Origin: Actinomyces sp. Marseille-P3109 | Lineage (GTDB): Bacteria; Actinomycetota; Actinomycetes; Actinomycetales; Actinomycetaceae | Direction: 5' to 3' | Assembly: GCF_900323545.1 (NCBI RefSeq) | Contig: NZ_OOHN01000008.1 | Coordinates: forward strand, 2,916,019 to 2,980,018 | Length of the DNA stretch: 64,000 bases | Part shown: piece by piece, positions 7,245-36,149 of the stretch | Layout of the letters: each line of letters starts with the position of its first letter | Position numbering within the stretch: position 1 is the first letter of the stretch | The notes under the pieces: generated by a model | Told to the model about the DNA's origin: nothing | Databases searched by the model: none | Seen by the model: only the letters and a program-made list of their open reading frames with translations | Program-made: the position numbers and the translations under genes

Positions 7245-7253
7245 GCCGCCCGA

Positions 7254-7714: not shown

Positions 7715-7745
7715 GAGATATGCGGCTATCGAATCGCTGCGGGAC

Positions 7746-8207
7746 TCACTGCCTGGGGGAGCGGTTGGCGGAGCCGGCGGAGAGCAGGTCGCGGATCTCG
7801 GTGAGCAGCTGGACGTCGGTGACCTCCTTGGCCTCCTCCTCGGCCTTCTGCTTGGCCATACGCTCCTTGACCTTGTTCATCGGCATGACAATGGCGAAGT
7901 AGACGGCGACGGCGATGAGGAAGAAGTTGATCACCGTGGTGACGATCGTTCCGGGCATCACGTAGCCGTCGGGGTTGGCGGCAAGCTCCTGAGCGGTGGC
8001 CAGGTGGAAGGTGTAGCTGCCCTTCTCATACAGGGAGAATGCTCCCAGTGAGTCGAAGTTTGGCTGGCCAATGAGCTGCCCGATGATGGTCATGATGACC
8101 TTCGTGATGGCATCAACGATCGGCTTGAAGGCAGCACCGATGATAACGGCGACGGCGAGTTCGAGGGCGTTGCCCTGCGCGATGAACTCCTTGAATCCCT
8201 TGATCAT
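7746..8207 (-). CDS. mscL: Large-conductance mechanosensitive channel MscL
   Basis: A 153-residue membrane protein that opens under membrane tension to release solutes after osmotic downshock. The N-terminus MIKGFKEFIAQGNALELAVA is the MscL amphipathic helix followed by TM1 (residues ~15-45, with the GAAFKPIVDAIT signature). TM2 lies at ~95-115 (TTVINFFLIAVAVYFAIV). A charged C-terminal helix (KVKERMAKQKAEEEAKE) completes the pattern. The start is the ATG at 8207, with AAAGGA upstream. An in-frame ATG at 8246 adds 13 residues that do not fit the family. It is a single gene with its own terminator. Confidence 0.95.
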   Translation of the reverse strand: MIKGFKEFIAQGNALELAVAVIIGAAFKPIVDAITKVIMTIIGQLIGQPNFDSLGAFSLYEKGSYTFHLATAQELAANPDGYVMPGTIVTTVINFFLIAVAVYFAIVMPMNKVKERMAKQKAEEEAKEVTDVQLLTEIRDLLSAGSANRSPRQ

Positions 8208-8312
8208 GGCGATCCTTTCGTAGCGGCGCGGGCAGGCGTCTGCCATGGGTGCGCCATCGGGGACTAGTAAAAGTGAAGCGCCTTATCATCCGTGTAAGGC
8301 GCCGCAGCGGCA

Positions 8313-9254: not shown

Positions 9255-9366
9255 GCCTCCAGGATCAGGGCAGTGGTAACGCTCGGCGCGGTCCGGCTGT
9301 CAGGCCTGTGGACGGGCGCTGCACCAGCGGACCTGTGGCCCCCGGGCGCGCGCTTCTGGCTTGCTC

Positions 9367-10029
9367 TCAGGCCTCCGGGGACCGGGCGTGCGCCGGCGAG
9401 CCGGCAGCCAGCAGGAACCACTCCTGAGCCGTGATGACCGCGTCCACGGGCTCATCGTGCTCCTCCACGGGAAGCGGCCCGGCCACCAGCTCCTCGGGGT
9501 GGATGATCGCGAAGGTGTGGGTCCCCGGTGCCCGCAGTGGCAGCATTCGGTCGTACCAGCCGCCTCCCTGGCCCAGCCGCCGGCCGTCGCGGTCCACGGC
9601 GAGCGCCGGAATGAGGAGAGCGTCGACGTGACGCACCGCCTCAGCCGGCAGCGCGGGGCCGCTGGGCTCTGGAGGGCGCCTGGGCGCCCGTTCCGCCAGG
9701 TCCTCACTTCCTTGGAACAGACCCCAGCAGCGCGCCAGGTGCGGTCCGAGCACCGGCAGCAGCACCTTGACGCCGGTCTCGTGAAGTCTCTCCAGCAGCA
9801 GCCGGGTGCAGGGCTCGGCCCCCACCGACACGAAGGTCGCCACACTCGCCGCACCGGCCACCGCCTCCAGGGCGTGCTCGGTCAGCGCCTCGCAGGCCGC
9901 CGTGTGCCCCGAGGAGGGGTGGTGGTGATGGGTTCGCCGGTGGGACCGCAGCACCTTGCGCAGCTCTTCCTTGGCGTCGTCGACCTCGAGTCTGCTCGTG
10001 TCAGGAAGGTCCAGCGCGCCGGTCGTCAT
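9367..10029 (-). CDS. 5-formyltetrahydrofolate cyclo-ligase
   Basis: About 220 residues. The enzyme uses ATP to convert 5-formyl-THF to 5,10-methenyl-THF in the cytoplasm, returning stored folate to one-carbon metabolism. The family signature DRDGRRLGQGGGWYDR (about 60-75 residues before the end) carries the nucleotide-binding glycines. An N-terminal helix with several arginines (KEELRKVLRSHRRTHHHH) also fits. The start is the ATG at 10029 with AAGGA 7 nt upstream. A GTG at 10035 is possible. The gene is divergent from glp, an arrangement often seen in actinobacteria. Confidence 0.9.
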   Translation of the reverse strand: MTTGALDLPDTSRLEVDDAKEELRKVLRSHRRTHHHHPSSGHTAACEALTEHALEAVAGAASVATFVSVGAEPCTRLLLERLHETGVKVLLPVLGPHLARCWGLFQGSEDLAERAPRRPPEPSGPALPAEAVRHVDALLIPALAVDRDGRRLGQGGGWYDRMLPLRAPGTHTFAIIHPEELVAGPLPVEEHDEPVDAVITAQEWFLLAAGSPAHARSPEA

Positions 10030-10124
10030 AGGCACATCCTTGCAGGTGAGGACGCCTCGTATCTGAAACGTTCGTCCCGGCGGGGCACGCCGTGTGTCGC
10101 AAACCTGACGGTAGCCTGAGTGTC

Positions 10125-11336
10125 ATGAGAACAGTGGCCGAACACCTGGCCGCCTGCCTGGAGATCGCCCAGGCGGCCGCGCCCCTCGACGTGGTCCTTC
10201 CTGACGCCGTCGGATGCGTCCTGGCCCAGGACGTCGTCGCCGGAATCGACCTGCCCGCCGTGGATCTGGCCGGCCAGGACGGCTATGCCGTCATCGCCAG
10301 GGACATCGCCGAGGCCGGACAGAGCAACCCGCTCGAGCTCGATGTCGTCGACGCGGTGCGCGCCGGCGACATGCGCCCCTGCCACCTCGTCTCCGGCGCG
10401 GCCGTCCTCATCGACTCCGGTGCTCCCATGCCGTTGGGGGCCGACGCCGTCATCCCCTGGACCGACACCGACCGCGGCGAGTCCCGGGTCAGTATCTACC
10501 GCGCCGTCGCGGCCGGCGACAACGTACGCCGTCGCGCCGAGGACGTGAGGTCCGGAACCACCGTTCTCAAACGGGGCTCGCGCGTCAGCGCCCGGCAGGT
10601 CGCCCTCCTGGCCGGCCTCGGGCTGCACCGGGTGCGCGTGCATCCCGCCCCGCGCGTCGTCGTGGTCTCCATCGGCGACGAGCTGGTCGAGCCCGGCCAG
10701 TCCCGCGAGGCCGGCGACGTCTTCGACGCCAACGGCCACGCCCTGGCCTGCGCGGTCACCGATGCCGGCGGTCAGGCCTTCCGCGTGGCCGCAGTCCCCG
10801 ATGAGCTGCGCGCCCTGGCCGAGACCATCGAGGACCAGCTGGTGCGCGCCGACGTCCTCATCACCACCGGGGGCCTGAGCGTCGGTCAGGGAGACACGGT
10901 CAAGGAGGTCCTCGCCCCCCTGGGCTCGGTGCGGTTCGACGCCGTTGCCATGTCCCCGGGCCGCCAGCTGGGAGTGGGAACGGTCGAGGGCACTCCGATC
11001 TTCTGCCTGCCCGGCGACCCGGTCAGCGCCCAGATCGCCTTCGAGACCTTCGTGCGCCCGGTCCTGCGCCAGATCGCCGGACGCACCTCCCTGCACCGCT
11101 CCAGCCTGCCCGCCACCATGTCCGAGGGCTGGCACTCACCGATCGGCAAGCGTGAGTTCGTCCCCGTGCATGTCAGCGGCTCGCCGACCCGCGGCTACCG
11201 CGCCGAGCCGACGGCACCGCCCGGCACCGTCCGGCTGCACGGCCTGTCCGAGGCCAACGCCATCGCCGTCGTCCCTGAGGACACGAGCACCGTGGTGGCC
11301 GGCGACACCCTCCACTGCCTCCTCCTGGACAGCTGA
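10125..11336 (+). CDS. glp: MoeA/gephyrin-like protein (Glp candidate)
   Basis: A 403-residue MoeA-family protein. Classical MoeA inserts molybdate into molybdopterin. Domain signs are AGQDGYAV (usual MDGYA), GDNVRRRAEDV, TTGGLSVGQGD (usual TSGGVSVGDYD) and SPGRQLGVG...LPGDPVSAQ. These departures, and the neighbours rimJ and a coiled-coil-prone membrane protein, match Glp. In Corynebacterium Glp is a gephyrin-like protein that binds FtsZ and the membrane receptor GlpR to help organise division. No other molybdopterin genes are in the window. The start is the ATG at 10125, placed after a TAGCCT box at 10112, suggesting a leaderless transcript. The stop overlaps the next ATG. The Glp role is inferred from synteny, while the MoeA fold is clear. 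Confidence 0.8.
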   Translation: MRTVAEHLAACLEIAQAAAPLDVVLPDAVGCVLAQDVVAGIDLPAVDLAGQDGYAVIARDIAEAGQSNPLELDVVDAVRAGDMRPCHLVSGAAVLIDSGAPMPLGADAVIPWTDTDRGESRVSIYRAVAAGDNVRRRAEDVRSGTTVLKRGSRVSARQVALLAGLGLHRVRVHPAPRVVVVSIGDELVEPGQSREAGDVFDANGHALACAVTDAGGQAFRVAAVPDELRALAETIEDQLVRADVLITTGGLSVGQGDTVKEVLAPLGSVRFDAVAMSPGRQLGVGTVEGTPIFCLPGDPVSAQIAFETFVRPVLRQIAGRTSLHRSSLPATMSEGWHSPIGKREFVPVHVSGSPTRGYRAEPTAPPGTVRLHGLSEANAIAVVPEDTSTVVAGDTLHCLLLDS

Positions 11337-12130
11337 TGCCGCAAACGGGACGGGAACCGCACGACGACGCCGAGGGTCGACCCCCGGAGTCGAGGACTCT
11401 GGGCGGCGCTCTGAGAGGAGGAGTCCGGCGTGCCGCTGCCGGCCTGCTGCTCGGGGCGGGCTCTGCGTCGCGCTTCACCTGGCCGGTGCGCCTCGAGCCC
11501 GAACCGCCCCGAGGAGGGCCGGGGCCCGGCGCGCCGACCGGTTCTACTCGTCCGGCCCGCCCGTTCGTCGTGGTGCGCGAGCTTCGTGTCGACGATGAGG
11601 AGGCCTGGAGGACGCTGCGACTGACGGAGAACGATCGGCTCGCCCCCTGGGAGGCCACTCTGCCGGCCGGCGGCGGAGAGGCGATGAGCGCCTTCCCGGT
11701 CTTCGTGCGCCGCCAGACGCGGCGGGCGAGGCTGGGGGAGGCGATGCCACTCGTCGTCGAGGTCGACAACGCCTTCGCCGGGCAGGTTGCCGTCGACCCG
11801 ATCACCTGGGGCGCCACCCGCAGCGCCCAGGTGGGCTACTGGATCGGCTCGGCCTGGCAGGGGCGCGGAATCATGCGCCTGTCAGTCGCCCTGGTCCTCG
11901 ACCACCTCCTGGGACCGGTCGGGCTGCACCGCGTGGAGATCAACGTGCGCCCCGAGAACGAGCGGAGTCTGGCGCTGTGCCGCGGGCTCGGGCTGCGTGA
12001 GGAGGGGCTGCGGCGCGGCTACATGCACATCAACGGAGCCTGGGCCGATCACGTCTCCTTCGCCGCCCTTGCCGAGGAGACTCACGGGCCCGATGGTGTC
12101 GCCTTCCAGCGGAGACTCGCCAGCGGCTAA
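11336..12130 (+). CDS. rimJ: GNAT N-acetyltransferase, RimJ-like
   Basis: A 264-residue GNAT-fold acetyltransferase, translationally coupled to glp (stop TGA and start ATG share one base). The first ~75 residues are arginine/glycine/proline-rich and probably disordered. The GNAT domain spans ~77-255, with the acetyl-CoA loop near SAWQGRGIMRLSV and the RimJ/RimL hallmark HRVEINVRPENERSLALCRGLGL. Family members acetylate the N-terminus of ribosomal proteins, but targets vary. Its fixed place between glp and glpR in actinobacteria is known; its link to their function is not. Confidence 0.85.
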   Translation: MPQTGREPHDDAEGRPPESRTLGGALRGGVRRAAAGLLLGAGSASRFTWPVRLEPEPPRGGPGPGAPTGSTRPARPFVVVRELRVDDEEAWRTLRLTENDRLAPWEATLPAGGGEAMSAFPVFVRRQTRRARLGEAMPLVVEVDNAFAGQVAVDPITWGATRSAQVGYWIGSAWQGRGIMRLSVALVLDHLLGPVGLHRVEINVRPENERSLALCRGLGLREEGLRRGYMHINGAWADHVSFAALAEETHGPDGVAFQRRLASG

Positions 12131-12382
12131 GGTTTTTCACGGCCCGACCAAGGGTGGGGGCGAGGGCCTGGAGGTGCGCTCGCGGGGAGCCTTGGAGGGG
12201 GTGCGGGCCGACCGCTGACCGGCGGGCCGAGGCGTGATCGTCGAGGCGGAAGAAACTTGTGTGACTCGTGTGATAACAGAGGTGTAATACTGGCGGTGTG
12301 ACATCTTGAATCCCAGGTATTTCGCAGGAAAACCGGAGTGTTCCTGCGCGGGGGCAAGGGCACTCACGCCTACGGTTGCAGT
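12131..12382. promoter_or_regulatory. Intergenic region with candidate promoters before glpR
   Basis: TAATAC at 12285-12290, with TGACTC 17 nt upstream (12262-12267), is a plausible promoter. A second -10-like TACGGT at 12371-12376 lies just before the GTG at 12383. The hexamer GTGTGA recurs around 12259-12302. No gene is seen in this interval. Confidence 0.35.
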
Positions 12383-13984
12383 GTGGGAATCGAGATCTGG
12401 GCAGTCATCGCCCTCATCACGGTTCTCTCCGTGTACCTCTTTCCGTATTTGGTGGGGCGCCGTGAGATGGCGCGGCGCTCCAACGTCCAGGACCGCTACT
12501 CGGCCGAGCTGCGCGTCCTGGCCACGGGCGCGGCCGCCGTCGAGCGTGACGACACCTGTGCGAGCAGTGGGCATGCGGAGCTCTTTCGACGTCGACCGGA
12601 GGTGAGGGTGATGAACAGGCCCGCCGTGAGGAATGTGCGTGCCCTGCGCACCGAGCGCGAGCTCGACCATGCCCGTCAGGTTCACGCCCAGGGGCGCGAG
12701 CGCCGCCGGGTCGCCGCCTCGCACCGCGGGATCGTCGCCAGCGTCCTGCTCGGGATCTCCCTGGGCGCCTGGGTGCTGGGCCTTGTGACGGCCCTGCCGT
12801 GGTGGCCCGCTCTGCTGCCCACCGCCCTGCTGGGGGTCTCCATGGTGGCCGGGCGCCGTGCCGCCCTGGCCTCCGCGGCGGCGGACCGCCGTGAGCGCCG
12901 TCGGATCGCCGAGCTCGAGCACACCCTGGTGACTCTGACCGGTCGTCGCTCGACCGCCTCGGTCGTGGCCGCACCCCGCTCCGTCGTCGACGGCGTGCGC
13001 AGCGCCACCAGCGGTGCCCCCAGCTCCAGCAGCGCCAGCGCCTCCTCTCCCCTCGCGTCGGCAGATGAGTCCGTCTCCGCGCAGGACCCGTTCTTGGAGC
13101 GACTCGCCCGCGAAGGGGTGCAGAGGACGGCTGCCCGCTCCGCGACGTCGACCCGGGAGACGACCGCTGAGGAAACTGCAGAGGCGGTTGGTGAGACGGC
13201 CACCGGGGCTGCTCCTTCCGCCACTGCGCCGGCCGTTGAGTCCGCCGCCGATGCTCCCCGCGTCGCAGACTCCGAGGCGGAGCGCCTCGCCGAGCTCGAT
13301 GCCGATCTCGACGCGGAGACGGCTGCGGCCGTGGTCGCCGAGCGCGAGGCGACCCGCCGCGCCTCGGTGTACGTGCCCACGCGCCACGCCGGCAAGGTCT
13401 CCCGGGCCATGGGCGTGCGTGACGCGGTCTCACGTGACGGCGACGAGGAGAGCTCGCCGGGCACCAAGGACTTCGTCGCCTCCTTGTCGACCTCGACCTC
13501 TTCACGCCGCCTGACCGGCTGGGGGGAGCTCTTCGCCGAGGCGAGCGCCATCGAGCAGGAGGCGCGGGCGCAGGAGGCTGCGACGTCGGCCCCCGAGGCT
13601 CCCGCGCGTCCCCAGCAGGCTGCTGCCCCGGTCTCCTCCCCGGTCGCCAGCGAGCCGCCGCGTCCGGCCACCCGCCCGCAGACTCCTGCGGCCAGTGCCC
13701 CCGCCGAGGCGGATCACGTGGCCAAGGAAGCGACGACGTCGACTCCGCCCCAGGGCTGGCGGCCGGTCCACGTGCCCGCACCGACCTACACGTTGGCGGC
13801 CCGGGCGCCCCGGCGCTCCTACGCCGACCCGGTGGTCGATCCGGGCACCTATGCCCCGGTGCCCGCGCGCCCGCAGACGGCCCGTGCCTACATCCCCGCT
13901 CCGGTGGAGGATGATGAGGAGGAGCTCTTCCACCCCATCGACCTCGACGCCATCCTCGAGGGGCGGCGCGCGGCCGGAGAGTAG
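12383..13984 (+). CDS. Membrane protein, GlpR-like receptor candidate
   Basis: About 533 residues. An N-terminal membrane helix (IWAVIALITVLSVYLFPYLV) is followed by a charged helical region. A helical hairpin of two membrane segments comes next (GIVASVLLGISLGAWVLGL and a segment near WWPALLPTALLGVSMV). The long C-terminal tail is low-complexity, rich in Ala/Ser/Glu/Pro, and ends in an acidic DDEEELFHPIDLDAILEG. Position two genes after glp, and this topology, match the GlpR receptor described in Corynebacterium, which binds Glp. That identity is inferred. The start is GTG 12383 after a TACGGT box; an ATG at 12338 would add 15 residues. Confidence 0.65.
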   Translation: MGIEIWAVIALITVLSVYLFPYLVGRREMARRSNVQDRYSAELRVLATGAAAVERDDTCASSGHAELFRRRPEVRVMNRPAVRNVRALRTERELDHARQVHAQGRERRRVAASHRGIVASVLLGISLGAWVLGLVTALPWWPALLPTALLGVSMVAGRRAALASAAADRRERRRIAELEHTLVTLTGRRSTASVVAAPRSVVDGVRSATSGAPSSSSASASSPLASADESVSAQDPFLERLAREGVQRTAARSATSTRETTAEETAEAVGETATGAAPSATAPAVESAADAPRVADSEAERLAELDADLDAETAAAVVAEREATRRASVYVPTRHAGKVSRAMGVRDAVSRDGDEESSPGTKDFVASLSTSTSSRRLTGWGELFAEASAIEQEARAQEAATSAPEAPARPQQAAAPVSSPVASEPPRPATRPQTPAASAPAEADHVAKEATTSTPPQGWRPVHVPAPTYTLAARAPRRSYADPVVDPGTYAPVPARPQTARAYIPAPVEDDEEELFHPIDLDAILEGRRAAGE

Positions 13985-14097
13985 GGCGGGCGTGGTCCTC
14001 GTCTCGGTTGTAGCGCGGTTCCGGCGCGGTGGGCGGGCTCACCGCCACCGAACTTGCCAGGACGACCGGCGACGATGCTAGGATCGACCCCGCACCT

Positions 14098-14170
14098 GGG
14101 GCTATGGCGCAGTTGGTAGCGCGTCTCGTTCGCAATGAGAAGGTCGGGGGTTCGAATCCCCCTAGCTCCA
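14098..14170 (+). tRNA. tRNA-Ala(CGC)
   Basis: A 73-nt cloverleaf. The acceptor GGGGCTA pairs with TAGCTCC, with discriminator A. The D arm is GCGCAGTTGGTAGCGC, the anticodon stem TCTCG/TGAGA encloses the loop TTCGCAA (anticodon CGC), and the T arm is GGGGGTTCGAATCCCCC. CCA is not encoded. A promoter candidate is TTGCCA (14054-14059) with TAGGAT (14079-14084). Its 3' end is the join to a serine-recombinase remnant. Confidence 0.97.
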
Positions 14171-14390
14171 CGTAAGATGAGTAAATCGAAACTTGCCCCG
14201 CCTGATGGAGGGGCAGTTTTGTTTCTGCGGTGACTTCGGCCGGTGCATCGATGCTGGTGTGGGCGAGGATGCTGGCGGTGGTCTCGTCGGGTGTGTAGGT
14301 GGCGTTCTCTTCGTCGTCGATGGTGATGCGAGTGAACAGGGCGCGGTTGAGGATGAGTCGCTCAGCTGGTTCGCACTTGTTATAGAGGTC
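14171..14390 (-). pseudogene. 3' remnant of a serine recombinase/integrase
   Basis: The minus strand reads DLYNKCEPAERLILNRALFT, then RITIDDEENATYTPDE. This matches the C-terminal region of large serine recombinases, which usually end in a segment like 'LNQAFFTKIYIDDDE'. The frame is open from the IS3 left end (14390) down into the tRNA-Ala. Everything upstream, including the catalytic resolvase domain, is absent and replaced by the IS. It indicates that an integrated phage or element once used this tRNA locus. Confidence 0.6.
14194..14220 (+). terminator. Terminator after tRNA-Ala
   Basis: Stem TGCCCC (14194-14199) / GGGGCA (14210-14215) with a 10-nt loop, followed by G and a T-rich run (TTTTGTTT). 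Confidence 0.7.
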
Positions 14391-14498
14391 TGGGGTGCGT
14401 GGAGTTTCTCGGACTGGGGGAGTTTTTCTTCCCTTGAGTCGATAGGATAGATCCCAGGCCAGCAGCGAGATACTCGGAGGAGCTGCTAGGCCCAGGTC

Positions 14499-14741
14499 GT
14501 GCGTGAAGTCATCGAGAAGGAACGCACCATCTCCTCGGTTGCCTCTTCGTATGACCTTGTCCCCCAGACGGTAGGTAACTGGATCGCAAGGTACCGGAAA
14601 GAGCATGCCACCGATCAGGATCGTCAGAAAGCCTCCGAGTTGGCTGAGATCGCGAGACTCAGGGCGGAGAACAGCGGGCTGCGTCAGGAGAATGAGTTCC
14701 TGAAAAAAGCAGCTGGCTTCTTCGCCAAGGAACGACCGTGA
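14499..14741 (+). CDS. IS3 OrfA (HTH), copy 1
   Basis: An 80-residue OrfA with the HTH region TISSVASSYDLVPQTVGNW and a leucine-zipper-like end (LRAENSGLRQENEFLKKAA). The AAAAAAG slippage site is kept. The ancestral upstream start (ATG at 19180 in copy 2) is AGG here, so only an internal start remains. The product is probably not functional because the OrfB frame is broken. Confidence 0.6.
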   Translation: MREVIEKERTISSVASSYDLVPQTVGNWIARYRKEHATDQDRQKASELAEIARLRAENSGLRQENEFLKKAAGFFAKERP

Positions 14742-15635
14742 CCGAGCGCTTGCGAGCTCATCAACCGCGAAGAAGGCCCCTACCCCATCTCCTTGATGTG
14801 CCGGTGGACCAGGGTATCAAAATCTGGATACTATTCCTGGCGCGATCGACCCCAGTCGCAGACGGCCATCATGATCAAGGACATCTTTGAGCACTCCGAT
14901 GGTACCTACGGGTATCGAAGAATTCAGGTGATCCTGGAGCGGCGCGGTGTGCGGGCCGACGGGTCGACCATCCGCTCCATCATGAGGGATGTGGGGCTAC
15001 AGGCCGCGCAACCACGGGCGAAGGCCCGCACCACCGTGCTGGCTGAGGACCTGGGTGAGCGCCTTGACCTTCTCGGGCGGGACTTCACCTCTGACGAACC
15101 TGGGCGTAAGTGGTGCGGGGACATTCCCCCGCAGGCGGGAGGTGCCCCCTCCTATGTCAGGACGTGGGCTGGATTCGTTTATCTCGCTACTGTTCTGGAC
15201 TGCTGACACCTTGAAGGTCGTGGGTTATGCGATGGGCGACCGCATGCGTACCTCCCTGGTGTGCCAGGCCATTGACATGGCTGTACGCAGGTGCCCGGTT
15301 GACAGGGGCGTAACGATCTTTCATTCGGACAGGGGAAGTCAGTACACGTCACACGTCTCAAAGATTCCTGGACCATCTCAGGTCCTATGGCATTCGCCCC
15401 TCGGTGGGGCGCACGGGGGGTGTGTTGGGACAATGCGTGGGCGGAGTCATTTAATGCCACGCTGAAGAATGAGAGGGTCCACCGGATGGTGTATCCCACG
15501 AAGGATAAGGCGGTCAAGGATATTGCCTCGTGGATCGAGCTGAGATACAATCATGTCCGTCTTCACTCAGCCCTGGGATATCGCAGCCCGAACGAGGTCG
15601 AACGCGAGTTCCTGGGCTTAACGAAGGCAGCCTGA
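14742..15635 (+). pseudogene. IS3 OrfB transposase, copy 1, frameshifted
   Basis: Comparison with copy 2 shows indels just after the start (CGCTTGCGAG against CGCTACGAG), an insertion before the first catalytic Asp region, a stop after TVLDC caused by extra bases, and further shifts around 15340-15420. The final part is open again (15387-15635, with WDNAWAESFNATLKNERV carrying the catalytic Glu). It cannot produce a full DDE transposase. Confidence 0.85.
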
Positions 15636-15787
15636 AACAAGTAAACAAGCACTGTCTGAAAAACACCCAGCAGTCCAAGGTTCCGTCATCAGCGGCCAGT
15701 TCATGTGCCCTGCGGCTGAGTGCTTGCGCGGTTGCGCTTGTCATTTACGCTGGACGGATGCGTCAGAGTTGCTCCTGCGAAAAGCGG

Positions 15788-18700
15788 CTAGAAACGCCAA
15801 CAGAAGAGTCGACGCCACCATGGCATCGGAAGGTTTTGAGGGTTCGGGCGCGACTGGTTGTTGTCGGCGGCCAGGGAAATCCAGCCGCTCAGACGTTGAT
15901 CTGTGGGGTGAGTAGTTGCCAAATCTCCGTAAATGAGTGTCAAGCCTCCATGAGCGCAAATCTGTTCGACGATTTGGGTCGGAATATTCTCGACGTTTAC
16001 CCAAGGGGTTCCTTCCGCGTCAAATATGTTGATCCTGTCCCCGGTGAGTTGTGCTATCCAGCCAGGGGTAGGCTGCGGCGGTTCGTCATGAGCGACTTCC
16101 AGAAGTCCCGCGCGCTCCATTCCCTGACGGACGGGGTCGATGCGCCCCAAAGAGCTGACGGTGACTATTCCTGGGGCGTGCACCCAAAGCTCGGGTGTCG
16201 CGGATTCGGTGTCTCGCCACCAGACGTTGAGTTGGTCGCCCCCATCGATACTGTGCGTAACGTAGACGGATGGCGGCGGATCGCTGAAAATCTTGCGGTA
16301 GCGCATGGATTCGCGCTGTTCTCGAAGGATCATCGCCAGGTGCGCCCAAACATCCAACTGGCGTGTGCGCTGCTTGGGAGCCGGAAGTCTCCTGATCACG
16401 TCGAAGAGGGGCTCGGGGCCCTCCTCCGTGAAGGCTCTCAGAATCGCATAACGGCTCTGGTGATTAGTCTCCTCTAGCGCAGCGGAGTTTTCATCCAGCC
16501 ACACCACGAGGCGCCTGGCTGAGGCGATGAGGAGCTCGGGGGTCTCCAGTGGACGCTTACTAGCCTCGATCATCAGTTCAAGGCCCACGTCGAGGAGCCC
16601 ATCCACCAAGTGATCGACGAGGGCTCCCTCCTCCAGAGCTTGGTTTGCGGCGCCCAGCGCGGTATCCACCCCAGCCTGCCAGGCACTGCGTTCCACCAGC
16701 AGGAGCGCTGTCACTCTTTCGATATGGAGCCTGTGGAGTAGAGCGTTTCCTGCCCCGCTCACCGCTGGGTCAGGTGCTCCTGGAGGAACCAAGGCGTCCA
16801 GCGCCTGCAACGCGTCACGAGCGCGAGGCGGACTGGAGTCAGGCAGGCACGAATGCAGTACATCCCGGAGCATGCGCAGCGCGTGTTTCGTAGCCGGATC
16901 ACATAGGGCGTCCTCGTTGCCCTTTTGCAGCACAGCCTTGGTGAGGAGCCCGACTTCGACAACCTCCTCAACCTTGTGAAGACGCGCGGCAGTGATGGCG
17001 ATAACGGATAGGGTCTGAAGTTGCATCTGTACCCACGTCGCATGGTCGCGGACCAACTCCAGCTGGTCCTGCCGGACCTGGAAGGCCACGCGCGACCAGA
17101 AGCGGGAGATCGTAGCCTGCGAGGTGATGAAGGCCAACTGAGCGAAGTTGTGCATAGACATGCTGGCCAGGACCAAGACTTCAGGGCTGTCTTTGAACAC
17201 CTCGACCGTCTGCCGGAGGAAATAGTCGATGGGACGAATTAAGGCAGCGCCTTCGCGAAAGCGTCCATCCTCGGTCAGCTGCCGCACCCATTTGTCGCTG
17301 GTGCTCAGGATAGCCCATACCTCAGGCCCATTCAGCGTGATACTCTGTTTCGCCATGACTAGCTGAACGAAACCATGAACTGTTAGGACCTCATCCAAAT
17401 CGTGAGCCTGACCCGGTGTGAGGATCTCCTGCTTAATGAATCCAGAGACAAGGAGGTCGTCCAATGCCTTTTTGGTCATCCCAAGCTGGGCTAGGGCATC
17501 AAGCAGAAGACGGCAGGGAACGCGGCTTCCACCTGTAATCAACAAGAATGACGCCAGTGTTTGCGCTTCTGGGGATAGTTCTTTCCAGTCAGCTAGTACC
17601 ACTTGGGCCGCAGTTCGAGGATATCCATGTGGCAGTAAATCCTCGCTGTCCAAGTCGAGGCGATCCAGTCGGTCAGAGAACGGCAACAAGGCTTTTTCTG
17701 GGCCACCATGTCGAGCAATCCAACCAACCGCTAACTCCAGAGCCAAGGGCCATCCAGCGAGTGCTCTTGATATAGCGTCACAAGCGGATATCTGTTCAGT
17801 TGACCACGACTCGATTGCTTGCCCAAACCGTCGCGCCAAAAAACGGCGCGCTTCGATCTCGTCAAATGCATCTAGGGAAGTTGTTGGCGCGAGAGAGTTC
17901 GGCCAGGTCGCCACCCGTGTGGTTATGAGGACTTGTCCGTAGCCACTACGTGGTATCCAGGGGTAAACCTCGTCGAAAGAGGAAGCCCCATCTAGGACCA
18001 GCAGCCAAGGTACGGGCGATCCCGACAAAACCTCCACGAGATCGCGTGCGGGCACATCGGTGGGAGTAGTCGTTGCCCCCAGTTCTTGAAGTGCCATCGG
18101 AACTTGCGATTCGAGCACTCCTACCGAACTTGCGTCCAGCCAGAGGACGAACGCGACGTGTTCTAGGAGCGATCGAGCATGTAGATAGGCGGCGGCGGAC
18201 TTTCCGGTACCGGACATCCCCTTCAGGACCGCGATCTGGGGGGCGCCCTCATAGAGCGAGCCGATAGGGAGGTTCGTCTCAAGGAATCGAGAGGATTCCT
18301 CTCGCTCGATATAATTCCCGACAGGGACCTGAATGCACTTTCCCCAGGCTCGCGCTCCTAGGGTGCTAGATAGTAGAGGATTTGAGCCCGTTAGAATCTC
18401 GCGAATGTCATCGTAGGACAAGCGTTGGTTGTTTGTGTTGGACCCCGCCTCGTGTACGCGGTCAATTAGTTGACGCAGAAGCAAGTACTGCAGTTCGCGG
18501 CCAGTCCCGCCATCTCCGGTGGCGCGCAAACGTCCGATGGTATGCAACAGCTTCTCAACCAGTTGATGAGGTGATTCCTGATGTGAGACGAAGCGCTCTC
18601 CTTGTCTAAGGAGTGTTGATTTTTCGTGTGCCAACTCTGTTTCGAGTCCGGCTGTTTTTCTTCGGTTGGTGAGGAGTTCGCATCGCCGAGCTCCAGGGTG

Positions 18701-18988
18701 CTCGCGGCGCAGGCCGTCTAATATTCGTCGGGTTTCTTCGATCCCGATCGTGGTCGATGAGCTCGATAGAGACGCCTTTACCTGGAGGACGCGGTCGGGT
18801 GGATCGCCTGCTGACAAGTGAACAATGATGTCGGCTGAGTCCTGGTCGACAGGGTCAACGTCGACTGACCAGTCAGGCGAAGATTTGGAGTACAAGTCCA
18901 GCAACAAGTCAACCGTGATTAGGTACTGGTATCTGAACCCGAATGCGGCTGCCACACCGCCGCCAGATCGTTTCATGGTACCCACCAT
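15788..18988 (-). CDS. Putative anti-phage STAND ATPase with N-terminal Cap4-like nuclease
   Basis: A 1066-residue protein. Residues ~10-150 resemble the Cap4/DUF4297 PD-(D/E)xK nuclease: FGFRYQYLITVD, then DSADIIV and VLQVKAS (Asp...Gln-x-Lys). Residues ~240-430 form an NB-ARC/STAND ATPase: Walker A GMSGTGKS (257-264), Walker B WLLVLDGA (328-335), sensor VLITTR (353-358) and GWPLALELA (412-420). A helical region (~430-930) and a beta-rich C-terminus make a likely sensor. The layout fits Avs-type/NLR-like systems, where target binding drives oligomerisation and DNA cleavage. It is the only gene between two IS3 copies, and its base composition is visibly less GC-rich than its neighbours, which suggests transfer. 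The ATG at 18976, after GGTGGG, is an alternative start. The anti-phage role is inferred. Confidence 0.8.
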   Translation of the reverse strand: MVGTMKRSGGGVAAAFGFRYQYLITVDLLLDLYSKSSPDWSVDVDPVDQDSADIIVHLSAGDPPDRVLQVKASLSSSSTTIGIEETRRILDGLRREHPGARRCELLTNRRKTAGLETELAHEKSTLLRQGERFVSHQESPHQLVEKLLHTIGRLRATGDGGTGRELQYLLLRQLIDRVHEAGSNTNNQRLSYDDIREILTGSNPLLSSTLGARAWGKCIQVPVGNYIEREESSRFLETNLPIGSLYEGAPQIAVLKGMSGTGKSAAAYLHARSLLEHVAFVLWLDASSVGVLESQVPMALQELGATTTPTDVPARDLVEVLSGSPVPWLLVLDGASSFDEVYPWIPRSGYGQVLITTRVATWPNSLAPTTSLDAFDEIEARRFLARRFGQAIESWSTEQISACDAISRALAGWPLALELAVGWIARHGGPEKALLPFSDRLDRLDLDSEDLLPHGYPRTAAQVVLADWKELSPEAQTLASFLLITGGSRVPCRLLLDALAQLGMTKKALDDLLVSGFIKQEILTPGQAHDLDEVLTVHGFVQLVMAKQSITLNGPEVWAILSTSDKWVRQLTEDGRFREGAALIRPIDYFLRQTVEVFKDSPEVLVLASMSMHNFAQLAFITSQATISRFWSRVAFQVRQDQLELVRDHATWVQMQLQTLSVIAITAARLHKVEEVVEVGLLTKAVLQKGNEDALCDPATKHALRMLRDVLHSCLPDSSPPRARDALQALDALVPPGAPDPAVSGAGNALLHRLHIERVTALLLVERSAWQAGVDTALGAANQALEEGALVDHLVDGLLDVGLELMIEASKRPLETPELLIASARRLVVWLDENSAALEETNHQSRYAILRAFTEEGPEPLFDVIRRLPAPKQRTRQLDVWAHLAMILREQRESMRYRKIFSDPPPSVYVTHSIDGGDQLNVWWRDTESATPELWVHAPGIVTVSSLGRIDPVRQGMERAGLLEVAHDEPPQPTPGWIAQLTGDRINIFDAEGTPWVNVENIPTQIVEQICAHGGLTLIYGDLATTHPTDQRLSGWISLAADNNQSRPNPQNLPMPWWRRLFCWRF

Positions 18989-19219
18989 ACATGGAGCGGC
19001 CAGGGTGACGACACCCTTCCGTCGCCCATGGCAGTTTCAGGATTTCGTGCGAGTGGCCTTCGGCTGGCGCACGCGGCGTTCAGAGGGAGGCCTCAGACGT
19101 GATCGTGTTTAGAGCTGGGGTGCGTGGTGTTTCTCGGACTGGGGGAGTTTTCTTCCCGTGAGTCGATAGGATGGATACCATGCCAGCAGCGAGATACTCG
19201 GAGGAGCTGTTAGGAGCAG

Positions 19220-19465
19220 GTGGTGCGTGAAGTCATCGAGACGGAACGCACCATCTCCTCGGTCGCCTCGTCGTATGACCTTGTCCCCCAGACGGTAGGT
19301 AACTGGGTCGCCAGGTACAGGAAAGGGCATGCCACCGACCAGGACCGCGAGAAGGCCTCCGAGTCAGCCGAGATAGCGAAACTGAGAGCGGAGGTCCGTG
19401 AGCTGCGTCAGGAGAATGAGTTCCTGAAAAAAGCAACCGCCTGGCTTGTCAAGGAACGACCGTGA
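19220..19465 (+). CDS. IS3-family OrfA
   Basis: An 81-residue DNA-binding protein of the transposase: HTH (TISSVASSYDLVPQTVGNWV) followed by a heptad-like helix (LRAEVRELRQENEFLKKAT) for dimerisation. It begins at GTG 19220, with AGGAG just upstream. An ATG at 19180 opens MPAARYSEELL in another frame, which in related elements joins this frame, so an ancestral frameshift is likely in both copies. The stop TGA overlaps the GTG of OrfB. Confidence 0.8.
   Translation: MVREVIETERTISSVASSYDLVPQTVGNWVARYRKGHATDQDREKASESAEIAKLRAEVRELRQENEFLKKATAWLVKERP
19427..19433 (+). other. Programmed -1 frameshift heptamer (AAAAAAG)
   Basis: A6G lies in the OrfA frame as CTG-AAA-AAA-G. A -1 slip enters the OrfB frame, which is open through GTG 19462, giving an OrfAB fusion. 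This is the known expression mode of IS3-family transposases. Confidence 0.75.
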
Positions 19466-20346
19466 CCGAGCGCTACGAGCTGATCAACCGCGAAGAAGGC
19501 CATTATCCCATCTCCTCGATGTGCCGGTGGTCCAGGGTATCAAAATCAGGGTACTACTCTTGGCGCGACCGTCCCCAGTCGCAGACGGCCATTCGGAGGG
19601 AGGAGCTGGCTGTGATGAGCAAGGACGTTTTTGAGGACTCCGATGGTACCTACGGGTACCGACGGATTCAGGTGGTCCTGGAGCGGCGTGGTGTGCGGGC
19701 GGACGGGGCCACGATTCGGTCCATCATGCGTGACCTGGGGCTGAAGGCCGCGCAACCACGGGCGAAAGTCCGAACCACGGTGCCGGCCCAGGACCTGGGT
19801 GAGCGGCCGGACCTGCTCAGGCGGGACTTCACCGCAGATGAGCCCGGCAAGAAGCTGTGCGGGGACATCACCTACGTCAGGACGTGGGCCGGATTCATTT
19901 ATCTCGCTACTGTTCTGGACTGCTGCACCAAGAAGGTCGTGGGTTATGCGATGGCCGACCACATGCACACGTCCTTGGTGTGCCAGGCCATTGACATGGC
20001 GGTCAAGAGATGCCCAGTCGAGGAGGGCGTGACGGTCTTTCATTCGGACCGAGGTAGTCAGTACACGTCTCAGAGGTTCCTGGACCACCTCAAGGCTTAC
20101 GGGATTCGCCCCTCGGTGGGGCGCATGGGGGTGTGTTGGGACAATGCGTGGGCGGAGTCATTTAATGCCACGCTGAAGAATGAGAGGGTCCACCGGATGG
20201 TGTATCCCACGAAGGATAAGGCGGTCAGTGATATTGCCTCGTGGATCGAGCTGAGATACAATCATGTTCGCCTTCACTCAGCCCTGGGATATCGCAGCCC
20301 GAACGAGGTCGAACGCGAGTTCCTGGACTTGACTAAGGCAGCCTGA
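19462..20346 (+). CDS. IS3-family OrfB transposase (DDE)
   Basis: A 294-residue rve-type integrase core. Catalytic residues are in GDITYVRTW (Asp), VFHSDRGSQYTS (Asp) and NAWAESFNATLKNE (Glu), with correct spacing for a DDE transposase. The N-terminal HTH_21 part includes DGTYGYRRIQVVLERRG. It is probably made mainly as the OrfAB fusion through the slippage site 30 nt upstream. All parts are present, so the copy may still be active. Confidence 0.93.
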   Translation: MTERYELINREEGHYPISSMCRWSRVSKSGYYSWRDRPQSQTAIRREELAVMSKDVFEDSDGTYGYRRIQVVLERRGVRADGATIRSIMRDLGLKAAQPRAKVRTTVPAQDLGERPDLLRRDFTADEPGKKLCGDITYVRTWAGFIYLATVLDCCTKKVVGYAMADHMHTSLVCQAIDMAVKRCPVEEGVTVFHSDRGSQYTSQRFLDHLKAYGIRPSVGRMGVCWDNAWAESFNATLKNERVHRMVYPTKDKAVSDIASWIELRYNHVRLHSALGYRSPNEVEREFLDLTKAA

Positions 20347-20387
20347 AACACAAAACAAGCACTGTCCGAAAAACACCCAGCAGTCCA

Positions 20388-20544
20388 AACTGCATCTGCG
20401 GACTTCGAACTGGCGCAAACTTCTTTTCTGTCCGGCTTTCATGCGGTTGCCATCGTTGCTGCACTTATCTGTGTCGGGCTCGGCGCCCTGGCAATCCGAT
20501 GGATCCCCAAGACTGCCGTCGCCTCGAGTTCCGCTGAGAACTAG
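20388..20544 (+). pseudogene. 3' stump of an MFS (DHA2/EmrB-like) exporter
   Basis: Directly after the IS end the plus strand reads FLSGFHAVAIVAALICVGLG, then ALAIRWIPK, and stops at TAG 20542. This is the last membrane helix and tail of an EmrB/QacA-type drug exporter. All upstream parts are missing, so the IS or a deletion between elements removed them. Confidence 0.65.
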
Positions 20545-21114
20545 GAGGCTTGCTCACAATGATCCCGTCATCCGCTTGTACGCAGTCGGCGCCCGTATCG
20601 ATTCCATCCATGGAGGCTGAGGATCCGTCGCCCAGGCCGTAGACAGGCTGCCGGGTGAGCGACGTGTGGGGTCCGGCGGGGTTCGGTGACTGTTCCTTGT
20701 CGAATCGTCGTTGGGAGGTGATCGTGAAGGCGTGGGGTGCGGACCTTCACCTGGTCGTCCGGCGTGTCCGACGGCCTCCCATGGGGTCAGGGGGACCATG
20801 TCACCAGGTATAGGCGGCTCAGTGTGGTCCGTTCGTCTGGGAGGCGGCCTCAGGCTGAGCCTCCTTGTGGCAACGGGCGTCGACCCGGTAGATCGTGTCC
20901 TTGCAGACCCGAGTACTGCGGACCTCCTCGAGGTTCGCGAGGGTCCTCTGCTGCGGACAGACCGCGTATGGCCGGCCGGAGAGCACGAGATCTGGTTGAT
21001 GTCCTCCAAGGCAGCCTCGAGCACGTTCCTGGTAAACCGACTACGCAGACCTCCCCGATCCACCGGGCTCACAGCCCCCAGACCGGACCCACACGCCACA
21101 TCCCAGGTACACCC
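20545..21114. other. Decayed region without a defensible gene
   Basis: AGGAGG precedes an ATG at 20559 that codes for only 27 residues, probably a gene remnant. On the minus strand around 20840-21000, a broken frame reads RVCKDTIYRVDARCHKEA, possibly transposase debris. Long open frames on both strands have no coherent protein features. Confidence 0.3.
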
Positions 21115-22836
21115 TCAGGTACCGAGGCGCCAGCCGGCGGCGGCATCCTGCTGTCTCCAGAACTCGGCGAACCGGCCCTCCGCGGCGATCAGATCCGGGA
21201 GAGCGCCGTCCTCGACGACGCGACCGTCGTCGAGGAAGATGATCCGGTCAGCGGCGCGGATGCTGGAGAGCCGGTGTGCGACGATGATCCGGGTGCGGGA
21301 GGTGGGGTCGTCGGTGAGCGCGGTGGTGACAGCGGCTTCGTTCTCGGTGTCTAGGGCGCTGGTGGCCTCGTCCACGAGCAGGACCGGTGCGGGCTTGAGT
21401 AGCGCCCGCGCGATCGAGACGCGTTGCCGTTCTCCGCCGGATATCGAGGCGCCGGACTCCCCGACCTGTCTCGGGCCGAGCCGGTCGATCACTGTGTCCA
21501 CGCGTGCCAGGTGGGCCGCGGTGTCGACGGCGACGTCGGTGGCATCTGGGTCGCCGACCCGGATGTTGTCGTGGATGCTGCCGTCGAACAGGTAGGGGGT
21601 CTGGAAGACCATGCTGACAAGGCCGCGTCGGGTGGCGGAGTCGACAGTCGCGAGGTTGTGCCCGTCGATGAGGACGGCCCCATTGTCAGGGTGCTGCAGG
21701 CCTGCGATGAGCGCCAGGACCGTACTCTTGCCCGATCCGGACGGGCCGATGATCGCCGTCGTCGTGCCGGGCTCGAAGGTCAGGTCGAGCCCGTCGAAGA
21801 CCCGCGGCCCGGTGTCGTAACCGAACCCGACGTCGCGCAGCTCGATTCTCGGGGCGCGATCGATCCGGGGGCGGGTGTCGCCGTTCGGGTCGCGGGGTGC
21901 CTGGAGGACCTTGCGGATGCGGCGGAGGGTCCCGGTGACGGTCTCGATGCCGGGCGAGAGCTCGGCGAGCACGGTGAAGGTTTCCAGGTAGCGGACGATG
22001 ACGACGACGAGCGCGATCGCCTCCGGAACGGTGAGGGACCCGTCCACGGTGAGGGTCACGGTGGTGGCGACGAGGGCGAGGAGGGCGAGCTGGTTGGCCA
22101 GACCGAATAGCAGCTGGCCGGGGACCTGCAGCAGCAGTGTCCGCATGGTTGCACCGTGCAGCACGGTCAGGGCGGCGCCGGCGTGGCTGCGGGCGGGAGC
22201 GACTCGTCGTGCGGCGCGCAGCGCCTGCTGGGTGCGGGCGAACTCCAGCACCCGCTCGGTGAGCCGGTTGTTCGCGGTGGCCGCGGCTCGATCGGCGTTC
22301 CGGCCGAGCCGTCCGGAGGCCCAGAACGCGACCAGCAGCACCACGATCCCGGCCAGGGCGGCCACGCCGAGCTGCCACGCGAGGGCGAGCAGGGCGATCG
22401 AGATCATGGTGGGCAGCAGGATCGCGCTGACCAGTGGGGCGACGAAGTAGATGATGATGCCGACCAGGTCGGGTCCGGTCGCGGCGACGGCCTGGCGGGC
22501 GGTGGCGGTGTGCTCGGCGGTGAACCAGCTCAGCCGGATATCGGTGATGCGGTCGGCGACTGTGCGTTGACCGGAGTCGAGGATCTCGAAACCCAGCCGG
22601 AATCCCTGCCTCGCCGCGGCGGCGTCAATGACCCAGCCTGCGACGGTGGCCGCGGCGAGGGCGCCCAGCCAGGGCCAGGCGGAGGCCGGGTCGCCGCTGA
22701 ACAGCGCCCCGACGAGGGGCACGAGGAGTACGGCACCGGCGGCGCGCAGGATCACGCCGAGCACGGTGAGGGTCAGGTGCACGGCGACGTGGCGGCCGCT
22801 GCGGGCAGGCAGCAGGTCGAGCAGTGCTCGGATCAT
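21115..22836 (-). CDS. irtB: ABC exporter-fold siderophore importer subunit, IrtB-like
   Basis: A 573-residue half-transporter. Six membrane helices lie in residues ~15-300 and an ATPase domain in ~340-570: Walker [11 protein letters not shown]-loop VFQTPYLF, signature [14 protein letters not shown], Walker [10 protein letters not shown] and H-loop AHRLSS. It overlaps irtA by 4 bp (ATGA), so the two are coupled and likely form the IrtAB heterodimer. In mycobacteria IrtAB brings ferric siderophore into the cell, although its fold is that of an exporter. The substrate here is unknown. Confidence 0.88.
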
Positions 22837-25421
22837 GACGGATCGCCCTTCGACTCTGGGGGAGTGGTGAACGGGGTGCGGGCTTCCCACAGCCGCCGGT
22901 AGCGGCCGTTGCGGGCGAGCAGCTCGTCGTGGGTACCGGTTTCGGCGACTCGGCCGTTGTCGAGTACGACGATCCGGTCCACGCCGGTGACGGTGTGCAG
23001 CCGGTGCGCGATCACCAGCACGGTGCGCCGCGCGGTAAGCCGGCTCAGGGCCTGCTGGACGAGGTACTCGGATTCGGGGTCGGCGAACGCGGTGGCCTCG
23101 TCCAGCACGAGCACCGGGGTGTCGGCGAGGATGGCGCGGGCAATGGTGAGACGTTGACGTTCGCCCCCCGACAGCGCCACGCCCGACCCCAGCACGGTGT
23201 CGTACCCGTCTGTCATTCGCAGAATCCGCTCGTGCAGCTGTGCGGCGTGCGCCGCTGCCTCGACCTCGTCTGGGGTGGCGTCGGGGACGGCGAGGGCGAT
23301 GTTGTCCCGCACGGTACCCTGCACCAGCTGGGGCTGCTGGAACACGAACCCGACGCGGGTGTAGAGCTCGTCGGCGTCCAGCTCGCGCAGGTCACGGCCA
23401 CCGATGCGGATTGCTCCGGTACCCACGTCGTGGAATCGGGCCAGCAGCGCGGCGAGGGTGGACTTCCCCGACCCGGACGGCCCGACCAGCGCGGTCACGG
23501 TGCCCGGCCGGAGGGTCAGGTTGATGTCCTCCAGCACGGGCACGCCCGGCCTGTAGGAGAACCCGACCCGGTCGAACTCGACTACACCCGTCTCCGTCAC
23601 GGTGTTGGTGGCGACGGACGCGGTGGTTGTGAGCTCGGTCTCGTCGAGGGCGACCTGGATACGACGGGCGGCGGTCAGGCCGCCGCGCAGTCCCGAGATG
23701 CCATAGCCGATGCCGAGCAGGCGGGCACCGAACAAGGTTCCGAGCAGCAGGAACGGCAGCAGGTTGACTGCTTTCATGCTACCGGTGGTGATCAGCAGGG
23801 TCCCCAGCGTGCAGATCAGCAGCAGGAAGGTGCCCGGCCGGGTGACCAGGTCGATGAAGGTCCGCTGCCCGATCAGCGGCTGTTGCCAGGCGCGCAGGAA
23901 CTCGATGTACTCACCCAGCCGGGCGCGGAACGTTGATGCGGCCGCCCCGCCGAACACCCGGATCACCGGTTGCCCCTCGAGGTAGGCTCCTGCCTCCACG
24001 CTCATCCGCTCGGCCCATTTCGATGCCAGGGACGTCTTTGGTCCGGACTGGGTGATCATCGCCGCCATACCGAACATGTAGGCCAGCACGGGAAGTAGCA
24101 GCAGCAGCCCGAGACGCCAGTCCACGACGCACAGGTACGCCAGCACCGAGATAGGGGCGACGACCGCTGCGACCGCGTCCGGCACCGCGTGGGTGACCAG
24201 GTAGTGCAGTGACAGGGTGTCGTCCTGCACCAGCTGCTTCACCTGTCCCGACCCGCGGGTGTCGAACCAGCCCAGTGGCACCCGGGCGAGCTTGCCCAGG
24301 AGCCGGGAACGCAGCTCGCGGGCGAAACGGGCGTCGCGAATATGCAGCCACACCGTCAGCGCGGATGAGAGGAGCACCCCTGCCGCCAGCAGCGCCAGTG
24401 CCCAGATCCCCAGCGTCCACAACGCTGCCGTGTCCGCCCCGCTCAGCAGCCGGCGGGCCAGCTCCACCACCAGCACGTACGGGGCCAGCTGTACGAGAGT
24501 GGCCAGCGCCTGCAGCACCCCGGCGACGATCAGCGTCGGTCGCAACGGGGCGATCAGCCGGCCCCCCGCTCGCGCCCGCCACGCACCTCGGCCCACCGCA
24601 CCCGCCGTCGATACCTTCGCCGACGTCGCGGCCGCGATCGGCTCGTCGGCGGGGACCTGCTCCGGGGCTGCCTTGGACCGGTTCGATCCGAACGGACGCC
24701 CGTAGTACCAGTAGGCCTGGGCGTGGGTCTCGCTGCGGGGGAACCCGAATTCCTTCCGGAGTCTGACCCTCAGCTGCTTCAACGATCCCGACTCTGGTGC
24801 CATCCACGCGAACCAGTCCGACCAGTCCCGCGCCTCGATGGCCGCCGCGAGCGACGCCGGGCCGCGCCTCGGTACCCAGTGCACCCTCGCCCGTGGATGG
24901 TCGACGAGGGGGATGAGACGGTCCGTGTCCTCGTGCTCCTCCAGGTAGACCTCGATCGGCACCTCGTCTGGCACGATCCCCAGAATTCCGTTGATGGCCG
25001 GAATGGACGCCGCGTCACCGATCAGCAGGTATCCTGCAGGCAGCTCCTCCGGCAGGTCGAACCGGGTGCTGCCGAACGGGGTGACCGAGACCGTCATCCC
25101 CGGCCTCGCCCGCTGTGCCCACGCTGACGCCGGCCCCGCAGGCTCGTGCAACACGAATTCGACGGCGAAGTCCCCGGTGGCCGCGTCACCCTCCGCGATC
25201 GTGTACCCCCGCTGATGCTCCTTGTCAGCACCCTCATGGTCCGGGAACCAGAATCGCAGCGCCGCGGTCGGCGCGACCACGTCCCCCTCCAGCAGTGTTG
25301 CCGAATGCATCCGCACCCGCACGACTCCCGGTGAGATCATCTCCGTCCCGGTGACCGTAGCCTCATGGTCCTGCGCGCCGTAGGCGCGCAGGACCGCCCC
25401 GTTCAGTCCCCGCTTCGCCAT
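22833..25421 (-). CDS. irtA: ABC transporter with N-terminal siderophore-interacting FAD domain, IrtA-like
   Basis: An 862-residue fusion. Residues ~15-270 form a siderophore-interacting/ferric reductase domain (RGYTIAEGD for flavin binding, [17 protein letters not shown] for nucleotide binding, and a C-terminal QAYWYYGR). Then come six membrane helices (~310-570) and an ATPase domain (~620-850: [33 protein letters not shown]). IrtA of mycobacteria has this order and reduces Fe(III)-siderophore during import. The start ATG at 25421 overlaps the tetR stop (TGATG). A longer frame to 25523 lies inside tetR and is rejected. It forms an operon tetR-irtA-irtB. Confidence 0.92.
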
Positions 25422-26122
25422 CACTGCCCCTTCCCGGCGGCCTCCAGGGCCGCTCTGATCTGCGCCGCCGAACGGCCCGGCGGTGCCATCTCCACGAATG
25501 CCCGCACCGCCGCGCCCAGCCACAACCGCACATACTCGTCCGCGCCGACGTCCGGCAGCGCATGGTGCGCCTCGCCCAACCGCGGATCGGTCCGGATGGC
25601 GTTGATCGCATCCCGTTCTCGCGCCGCACGCTCCTCCGCTCGCTGACGCTGCGTGTCCTCCGCGGCCGCGTACCCGATCGAGATTGACGCGACCGCGGAC
25701 ACCAGCGCGATCGCCGCGTCTGCCGAGTACCCGCGTCGACCCAGCGCCGTCACCTCAGACGCCAGCAGCCGGCGGCCGCTCTCCCCGCGTGGGAACAGCG
25801 TCTGTACGTATGCCGTGAGCCCGGGATGCTCGAGGATGAACGACCGTAGCTGCAACCCCATCGACAGCAGGTGCTGCGTCGTGTTCTGGGTGGTGTCGTC
25901 GACCAGCACCAGGTCGGACAGGATGCTCTCGCCGACCAGGCTCTCCAGCCCCCACCTCCCGTCGACGTGCCGGTACAGCGCCGTGGACGATACGCCCAGT
26001 CGGGCCGCCACCCCGCTCAGACTCAGCTGCACCAGACCCAGCTCCCTGCCCGCACGGACGATGTCCGCCGTCTCGATCTGTCGAGGCCGCCCTCCGATCC
26101 GCGTCATTTCAGCCTTTCGCAT
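25421..26122 (-). CDS. TetR-family regulator leading the irtAB operon
   Basis: A 233-residue protein. The N-terminal HTH (residues ~18-60) includes [19 protein letters not shown], typical of TetR. The C-terminal ligand domain is helical and unremarkable. Two starts are possible: ATG 26122 with GAGG 7 nt upstream, and ATG 26107 with AAGG. The gene overlaps irtA by one base, so it is first in the operon and may control it. The upstream iron-box-like element suggests iron control as well. Confidence 0.85.
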
Positions 26123-35813: not shown

Positions 35814-36012
35814 CTGTCAATACGTCACCCGGGGCTGGCGTGAGCCAGCCCTTCTTCGCGTAGCCCAGTAGAGTTCCATGTCTTACCCCAACGCGGTGCT
35901 TACGTTGCGCCACCGCCTCAATGTCACCCAGCTCGTCGTCGAGGAGGATTTGCTGATCGGCGATGTCACCGCCCGTTTTCAAGTGGTTTGCCTCTCCCGT
36001 TAGCTCCACCAC
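35698..36012 (-). CDS. Possible small HTH protein (doubtful)
   Basis: The minus frame from GTG 36012 reads DIEAVAQRKHRVGVRHGTLL, then GYAKKGWLTPAPGD. This resembles short DNA-binding proteins with a 'GVRHSTLLGYRKKGWLPEPD' motif. Its last third lies antisense to the NmrA-like gene, so the natural C-terminus is probably lost. It may be a truncated regulator or phage-derived remnant. Confidence 0.35.
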   Translation of the reverse strand: MVELTGEANHLKTGGDIADQQILLDDELGDIEAVAQRKHRVGVRHGTLLGYAKKGWLTPAPGDVLTVRLLTLGYSPIWQRQVLEALHRAARAAPPERALADLGP

Positions 36013-36018
36013 CTCAGG

Positions 36019-36056
36019 GGTCTGCCCCGCCAGGAAGCTGGCGGGGCAGACCTTTT
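36019..36056 (+). terminator. Strong terminator
   Basis: A perfect 14-bp stem (GGTCTGCCCCGCCA / TGGCGGGGCAGACC) with loop GGAAGC and TTTT after it. It ends the rrf2-SDR transcript about 200 nt after its last stop codon. It faces the convergent MFS gene. Confidence 0.85.
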
Positions 36057-36149
36057 CGTGCCTTGTGTGACTTCTGGGTGCCGAGTCGGCTTTCGTGGAT
36101 CTGAAGCCCTGTGCTTGGGTGTTTCTGTCGCGGTTTCGGAAGAGCCTCG

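Follow-up and report, generated by a model that had tools for sequence, protein, structure and literature searches.

The reverse-strand gene at 15788..18988 of the window (the whole stretch of 64,000 nt from Actinomyces sp. Marseille-P3109 that was analysed) probably encodes a single-protein, NLR-like receptor for abortive defence. It would have arrived as cargo of a conjugative element and been left behind when this element decayed at a tRNA-Ala gene.

The ORF listing of the window contained an open frame of 1066 codons with an ATG start, running from 18988 to 15788 (-). The same protein is listed with 1062 aa in the database, and several relatives start at the codon equivalent to MKRS, four codons downstream of the window ATG. 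A first-pass annotation had described this gene as the only one between two IS3 copies of the same orientation, with the motifs DSADIIV...LQVK, GMSGTGKS, WLLVLDGA, VLITTR, and GWPLAL and with a lower GC content. The frame was indeed open, no other gene was present between the two copies, and all quoted motifs were found in the protein. The GC content of the gene was 57.6%, compared to 65.7% for the window and 67.5% for positions 1-14097 plus 36058-56000. Comparison to the copy from Acidipropionibacterium thoenii (L001) resulted in a dN of 0.087, a dS of 0.429, and a dN/dS ratio of 0.203, and the ratio was 0.208 for the copy from [Zimmermannella] alba (L002). The gene is under purifying selection, with a dN/dS of about 0.20 that averages over both lineages and is blind to recent loss.

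Structure prediction revealed four parts of the receptor. Residues 16-206 (18371..18943 (-)) form a Cap4/LmuA-type PD-(D/E)xK domain with D53, Q69, and K71, and structure comparison showed the nuclease fold that is common to LmuA, Cap4, and HamA. Residues 217-550 (17339..18340 (-)) form an NB-ARC-like STAND NTPase with winged helix, for which Apaf-1 and plant NB-ARC proteins were the best structural matches; the key residues are K263 in Walker A, D333 in Walker B, and the MHD-like H538. A helical TPR-like solenoid follows at residues 551-900 (16289..17338 (-)), and a C-terminal beta domain, proposed to be part of the sensor, at residues 905-1042 (15863..16276 (-)). The first-pass assignment of a Cap4-like nuclease, a STAND/NB-ARC core, and a large sensor region with a beta-rich end was thus borne out by the predicted folds. 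The structure search did not result in a convincing PDB match for the beta domain. This domain resembles two small viral predicted structures, V5UPT1 and A0A4D6E0C5. The Foldseek matches of the receptor included Avs4 (8dgf_B, E 9.6e-7). No Pfam family matched the window protein above cut-off (NB-ARC reached an E of 0.18, under the cut-off), and PADLOC did not assign a whole system to the protein or its family.

Two protein searches with the receptor returned 24 and 29 rows, of which 1 and 2, respectively, were weak matches to other STAND/regulator proteins. We aligned the window protein with 35 relatives (36 rows) and omitted ten more for size. Residues D53, Q69, K71, A72, and S73 were invariant in all 33 rows having these columns (3 gaps), K263 was invariant in 35 of the 36 members (1 gap), and D333 and H538 were invariant in all 36. 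A glycine follows the Walker B residue D333 in 32 of the 36 members, and NTP hydrolysis by the receptor may therefore differ from that of classical AP-ATPases. Mean pairwise identity in the nuclease and the NTPase was 0.49 and 0.45, respectively, compared to 0.31 in each of the two sensor parts. At E <= 1 the LmuA model PDLC03848 matched 29/36 members (best 2.3e-7) and the HamA model PDLC00173 10/36 (best 4.7e-6). At E <= 0.1 we found Cap4_nuclease of Pfam in 5 members (best 0.021), Mrr_cat in 5 (best 1.8e-4), AAA_16 in 26, NB-ARC in 4, and NACHT in 8 of the 36 (best 1.9e-4), the window protein not being among the latter. Members with a named source came from Labedaea, Amycolatopsis, Pseudonocardia, Nocardiopsis, Isoptericola, and Arthrobacter and are annotated as hypothetical or NB-ARC proteins.

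The receptor family is rare, actinobacterial, and without a name. Within the genus, only the own genome (1 of 49) had a match over most of the query. Such matches were found in 3 of 396 genomes of the order sample (the own genome, G650, and G573, the copy of G650 being split over two contigs) and in 1 of 396 genomes of the phylum sample (again the own genome). Partial matches only were seen in 17/49, 12/396, and 16/396 genomes, respectively; these are confined to about residues 138-544 and mostly cover the NTPase. Five receptor loci were found on the named genome contigs. The own genome harbors a second STAND-type protein (805-aa frame, G000:C8:1792969-1793604) that matches the NTPase part only. 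Partial matches of this type were also seen in several other genomes of the genus, with one to five per genome. The family member of Arachnia (L004:10001-14782) is interrupted by an IS110-type transposase gene. In Labedaea a TIR-STAND-TPR gene lies about 1.5 kb away from the receptor gene (L005:14812-18084 (-)), and a distant relative on a Mycolicibacterium plasmid (24% identity over 497 aa, L007:5989-12527) is located near two Pycsar cyclase (PycC) genes and one gene for a PycTM effector. The neighbor genes of these last two relatives mildly support a role in defence.

The action that we propose for the receptor is based on analogy with bNACHT25/32 and Avs1-4. In the resting state the solenoid and the beta domain would hold the NTPase inactive. 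Binding of an invader cue by these two parts would cause the NB-ARC-like module to swap its nucleotide and to oligomerize, and the nuclease domains gathered in the oligomer would cut DNA. The infected cell would die or halt, which would block the spread of the invader. Nuclease activity, oligomerization, defence, and cell death are thus inferred from the systems named, and by the same analogy the receptor probably prevents infected cells from passing on the invader.

In other genera the receptor gene is part of conjugative elements. The copies from A. thoenii (Propionibacteriales), [Zimmermannella] alba, and Helcobacillus massiliensis (Micrococcales, L003) share about 84% protein identity with the window protein. 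A unit of about 3.4 kb (15682..19118 (-)) is homologous to the A. thoenii and [Zimmermannella] alba loci with 84-85% DNA identity and spans edge to edge between the two IS3 copies of the window; the DNA homology to the Helcobacillus locus ends at the locus end, inside the receptor gene. In A. thoenii and [Zimmermannella] alba the receptor is flanked by genes for ArdC/M78, ParB-like, and M23 peptidase proteins on one side and by DUF6112 and conjugation-type genes on the other side, while the Helcobacillus sequence covers the ArdC/M78, ParB-like, and M23 side only. ArdC, M78, ParB_N, M23, DUF6112, and VirD4/TraG were above the Pfam cut-offs in the receptor neighborhoods; the VirB6-like and VirB4-like genes are our reading, with Pfam hits absent or below threshold. 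A related Microbacterium element (L041) has no receptor, and two DUF6112 genes follow the peptidase gene at a distance of 125 bp from each other. In A. thoenii the receptor is located between two DUF6112 genes, and the homology to the Microbacterium element ends with the first one, at its stop codon. From the empty arrangement and this break in homology, the receptor looks like cargo that was inserted between two pilin-like genes of the conjugative element.

The window itself retains traces of such an element next to tRNA-Ala (CGC) (14098..14171 (+)), the insertion site. Behind it, at 14190..14390 (-), lie 67 codons for the C-terminal end of a large serine integrase, whose frame is cut off by the left IS3 copy. 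The frame runs open into the tRNA gene, and this is also the case in locus L080. The [Zimmermannella] alba contig with the receptor has a 615-aa PF07508 frame that runs into tRNA-Ala; it is located about 11 kb away from the receptor gene, in the direction of the conjugation genes. The 67 residues from the window are 91% identical to the end of this frame, and the junction of integrase end and tRNA is 88.8% identical to that contig over 295 alignment columns. Because the integrase end and the receptor are adjacent in the window and occur together on the [Zimmermannella] alba contig, it appears that they arrived together. Some observations speak against a joint arrival. The A. thoenii receptor contig has a different recombinase (52% to the window remnant over 47 residues), with no tRNA beside it in the stretch examined. 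Both A. thoenii and Helcobacillus have integrase ends similar to that of the window beside a tRNA-Ala gene (89% and 90%, respectively), but on contigs other than that of the receptor. Moreover, such integrase ends occur in same-genus genomes that lack the receptor (see below).

The other end of the insertion was recognized by same-genus comparison. The native flank of tRNA-Ala, which consists of the tRNA 3' end and a terminator-like hairpin, directly follows the tRNA in 10 of 19 same-genus loci and is displaced to 35995..36057 (+) in the window. The stretch from 14172 to about 36009 is therefore an island of about 21.8 kb at tRNA-Ala. Pieces of 10192-14360, a stretch that includes the tRNA, were 79-92% identical to a record of Actinomyces oris, where they are arranged in the same order (glp, GNAT, a hypothetical gene, tRNA-Ala). 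Within the island, two ABC-transporter genes are located at 21115-25523 (-); the first encodes a protein of 896 aa in which a siderophore-interacting FAD/SIP part at the N-terminus is joined to an ABC exporter-type half, and we take it to be IrtA-like. Twelve other proteins of the conjugative element were absent from the whole window (tblastn, E <= 1e-3), and the receptor, as the thirteenth query, was the only one that matched. Positions 20395-22400, which adjoin the right IS3 copy on its outer side, had matches in 48 of the 49 same-genus genomes, the own genome counted; among the matches listed outside the own locus, all were short (best 68% over 486 bp), and this search of same-genus genomes revealed no tie to the conjugative element. 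A short open stretch at 20390-20545 (+) resembles the terminal part of a membrane transporter, with no Pfam hit. Our best reading of the locus is a decayed conjugative element that kept the receptor gene. In the simplest history an element would have integrated at tRNA-Ala, IS3 insertions and deletions would have stripped nearly all of it, and the receptor would have remained.

The same receptor machinery could be directed mainly against incoming plasmids or rival conjugative elements instead of phages, a possibility that we consider clearly less probable than our main reading but the strongest of the alternatives. The position of the receptor as cargo between pilin-like genes would fit such a target, as does the competition for tRNA-Ala. 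Serine-integrase ends are present at this tRNA in 6 of the 19 same-genus loci (L043-L047 and L049; 78-90% identity, one 49%), which makes this tRNA a frequently used site of insertion within the genus; none of these six genomes has the receptor. However, the family members of Arachnia and Labedaea lie outside recognizable conjugation genes.

It is unlikely that the gene is a silent leftover with an intact frame, unexpressed since the decay of the element. The right IS3 copy is located about 127 bp upstream of the receptor start, and no sigma-70-like site was seen upstream in a simple scan, which finds no more sites than in shuffled sequence. The fully open frame and the dN/dS of 0.20 argue against silence, the latter with the reservation already given for recent loss.

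It is very unlikely that the protein is an FxSxx-associated or transcriptional STAND regulator that serves host signalling instead of defence. Residues 249-520 match FxSxx_TPR of NCBIfam (NF040586) with an E of 1e-28, but the score of 100 bits is far from the cut-off of 300. Moreover, in place of a DNA-binding output domain the protein carries a nuclease-type domain whose active-site residues are conserved, and its spread is rare and patchy.

The left IS3-family copy (~14391..15676 (+)) has a broken transposase, with ORFs of only 80, 137, and 82 aa in the transposase frames. In the right copy (~19116..20386 (+)) OrfA (81 aa, HTH_Tnp_1) and OrfB (294 aa, rve) are both open. Of the 13 matches to the IS3 element in the own genome, 3 are near full length. 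No duplication was visible by eye at the right copy or at a third copy of the genome (L078). If the left copy is taken one base longer per end, GGT is present on both sides; a match of three bases is expected by chance in about 1 of 64 cases and was not relied on. That the two copies form a composite transposon carrying the receptor gene is highly improbable: they sit in the same orientation exactly at both edges of the unit, but they are only 84.9% identical and one is broken, their outer flanks differ with no target duplication in common, the integrase end adjoins the left copy, and the same unit in A. thoenii and [Zimmermannella] alba has no IS3 there. Of the mobile cargo unit bracketed by insertion sequences that the first-pass annotation had suggested, the two brackets and the cargo nature (of conjugative elements elsewhere) hold, while mobility as an IS3 composite does not, as the duplication is missing. 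In our reading the locus shows a defence gene left between IS copies after decay of its carrier, an arrangement easily mistaken for a composite transposon.

Nuclease-armed NLR-like receptors as a kind are already known. According to PMC12169576, bNACHT25 and bNACHT32 combine a PD-(D/E)XK DNase with a STAND NTPase; DNA is degraded upon infection, and the D48A exchange abolishes defence. They resemble the receptor as single proteins with an N-terminal PD-(D/E)XK DNase, a central STAND NTPase, and a C-terminal sensing part, but have NACHT modules and NCH1 domains, whereas the receptor best matches Apaf-1 and plant NB-ARC proteins and continues into a TPR-like solenoid and a beta domain. The Avs1-Avs4 (AVAST) proteins, whose nuclease action cuts phage and host DNA according to PMC12931631, also combine a nuclease effector, a STAND NTPase, and a large C-terminal sensor. 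The repeat region and the end domain are different, in agreement with the earlier remark on a similar order with a distinct sensor, and no Avs profile was among the PADLOC matches of the receptor protein or family.

The N-terminal nuclease fold is shared with LmuA (Lamassu), Cap4 (CBASS), and HamA (Hachiman). HamA is activated by a helicase partner. LmuA is activated by an SMC-like partner and Cap4 by a cyclic nucleotide, as stated in PMC10586767. While these nucleases need separate activators, the nuclease of the receptor is fused to an NLR-like switch, and no SMC-like LmuB was recognized among the neighboring ORFs, read by eye, in the window and in the A. thoenii and [Zimmermannella] alba loci. 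The TPR protein of the FxSxx-COOH system has an NTPase core like that of the receptor, but the NF040586 match covers neither the nuclease part at the N-terminus nor the C-terminal half. No whole PADLOC system fits the combination of a Cap4/LmuA-type nuclease, an NB-ARC-like NTPase, a TPR-like solenoid, and a beta domain, and among the papers listed by searches of an open-access library we recognized no description of the receptor family or its conjugative element. A new NLR-like class, in which the modelled beta domain would be an undescribed sensor fold, maybe akin to the small viral proteins, and the receptor an immune cargo of conjugative elements across actinobacterial orders that is directed against phages or rival elements, is conceivable but rather unlikely. 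The end domain, which has no convincing solved relative, offers a well-defined starting point in the search for a new invader cue. A precedent for defence genes on integrative conjugative elements is provided by an ICE of B. subtilis, which carries an anti-phage gene according to PMC8880864; both gene and element are different from those described here. To the known systems our analysis adds a rare actinobacterial family of nuclease-armed NLR-like receptors that is tied to conjugative elements across orders.
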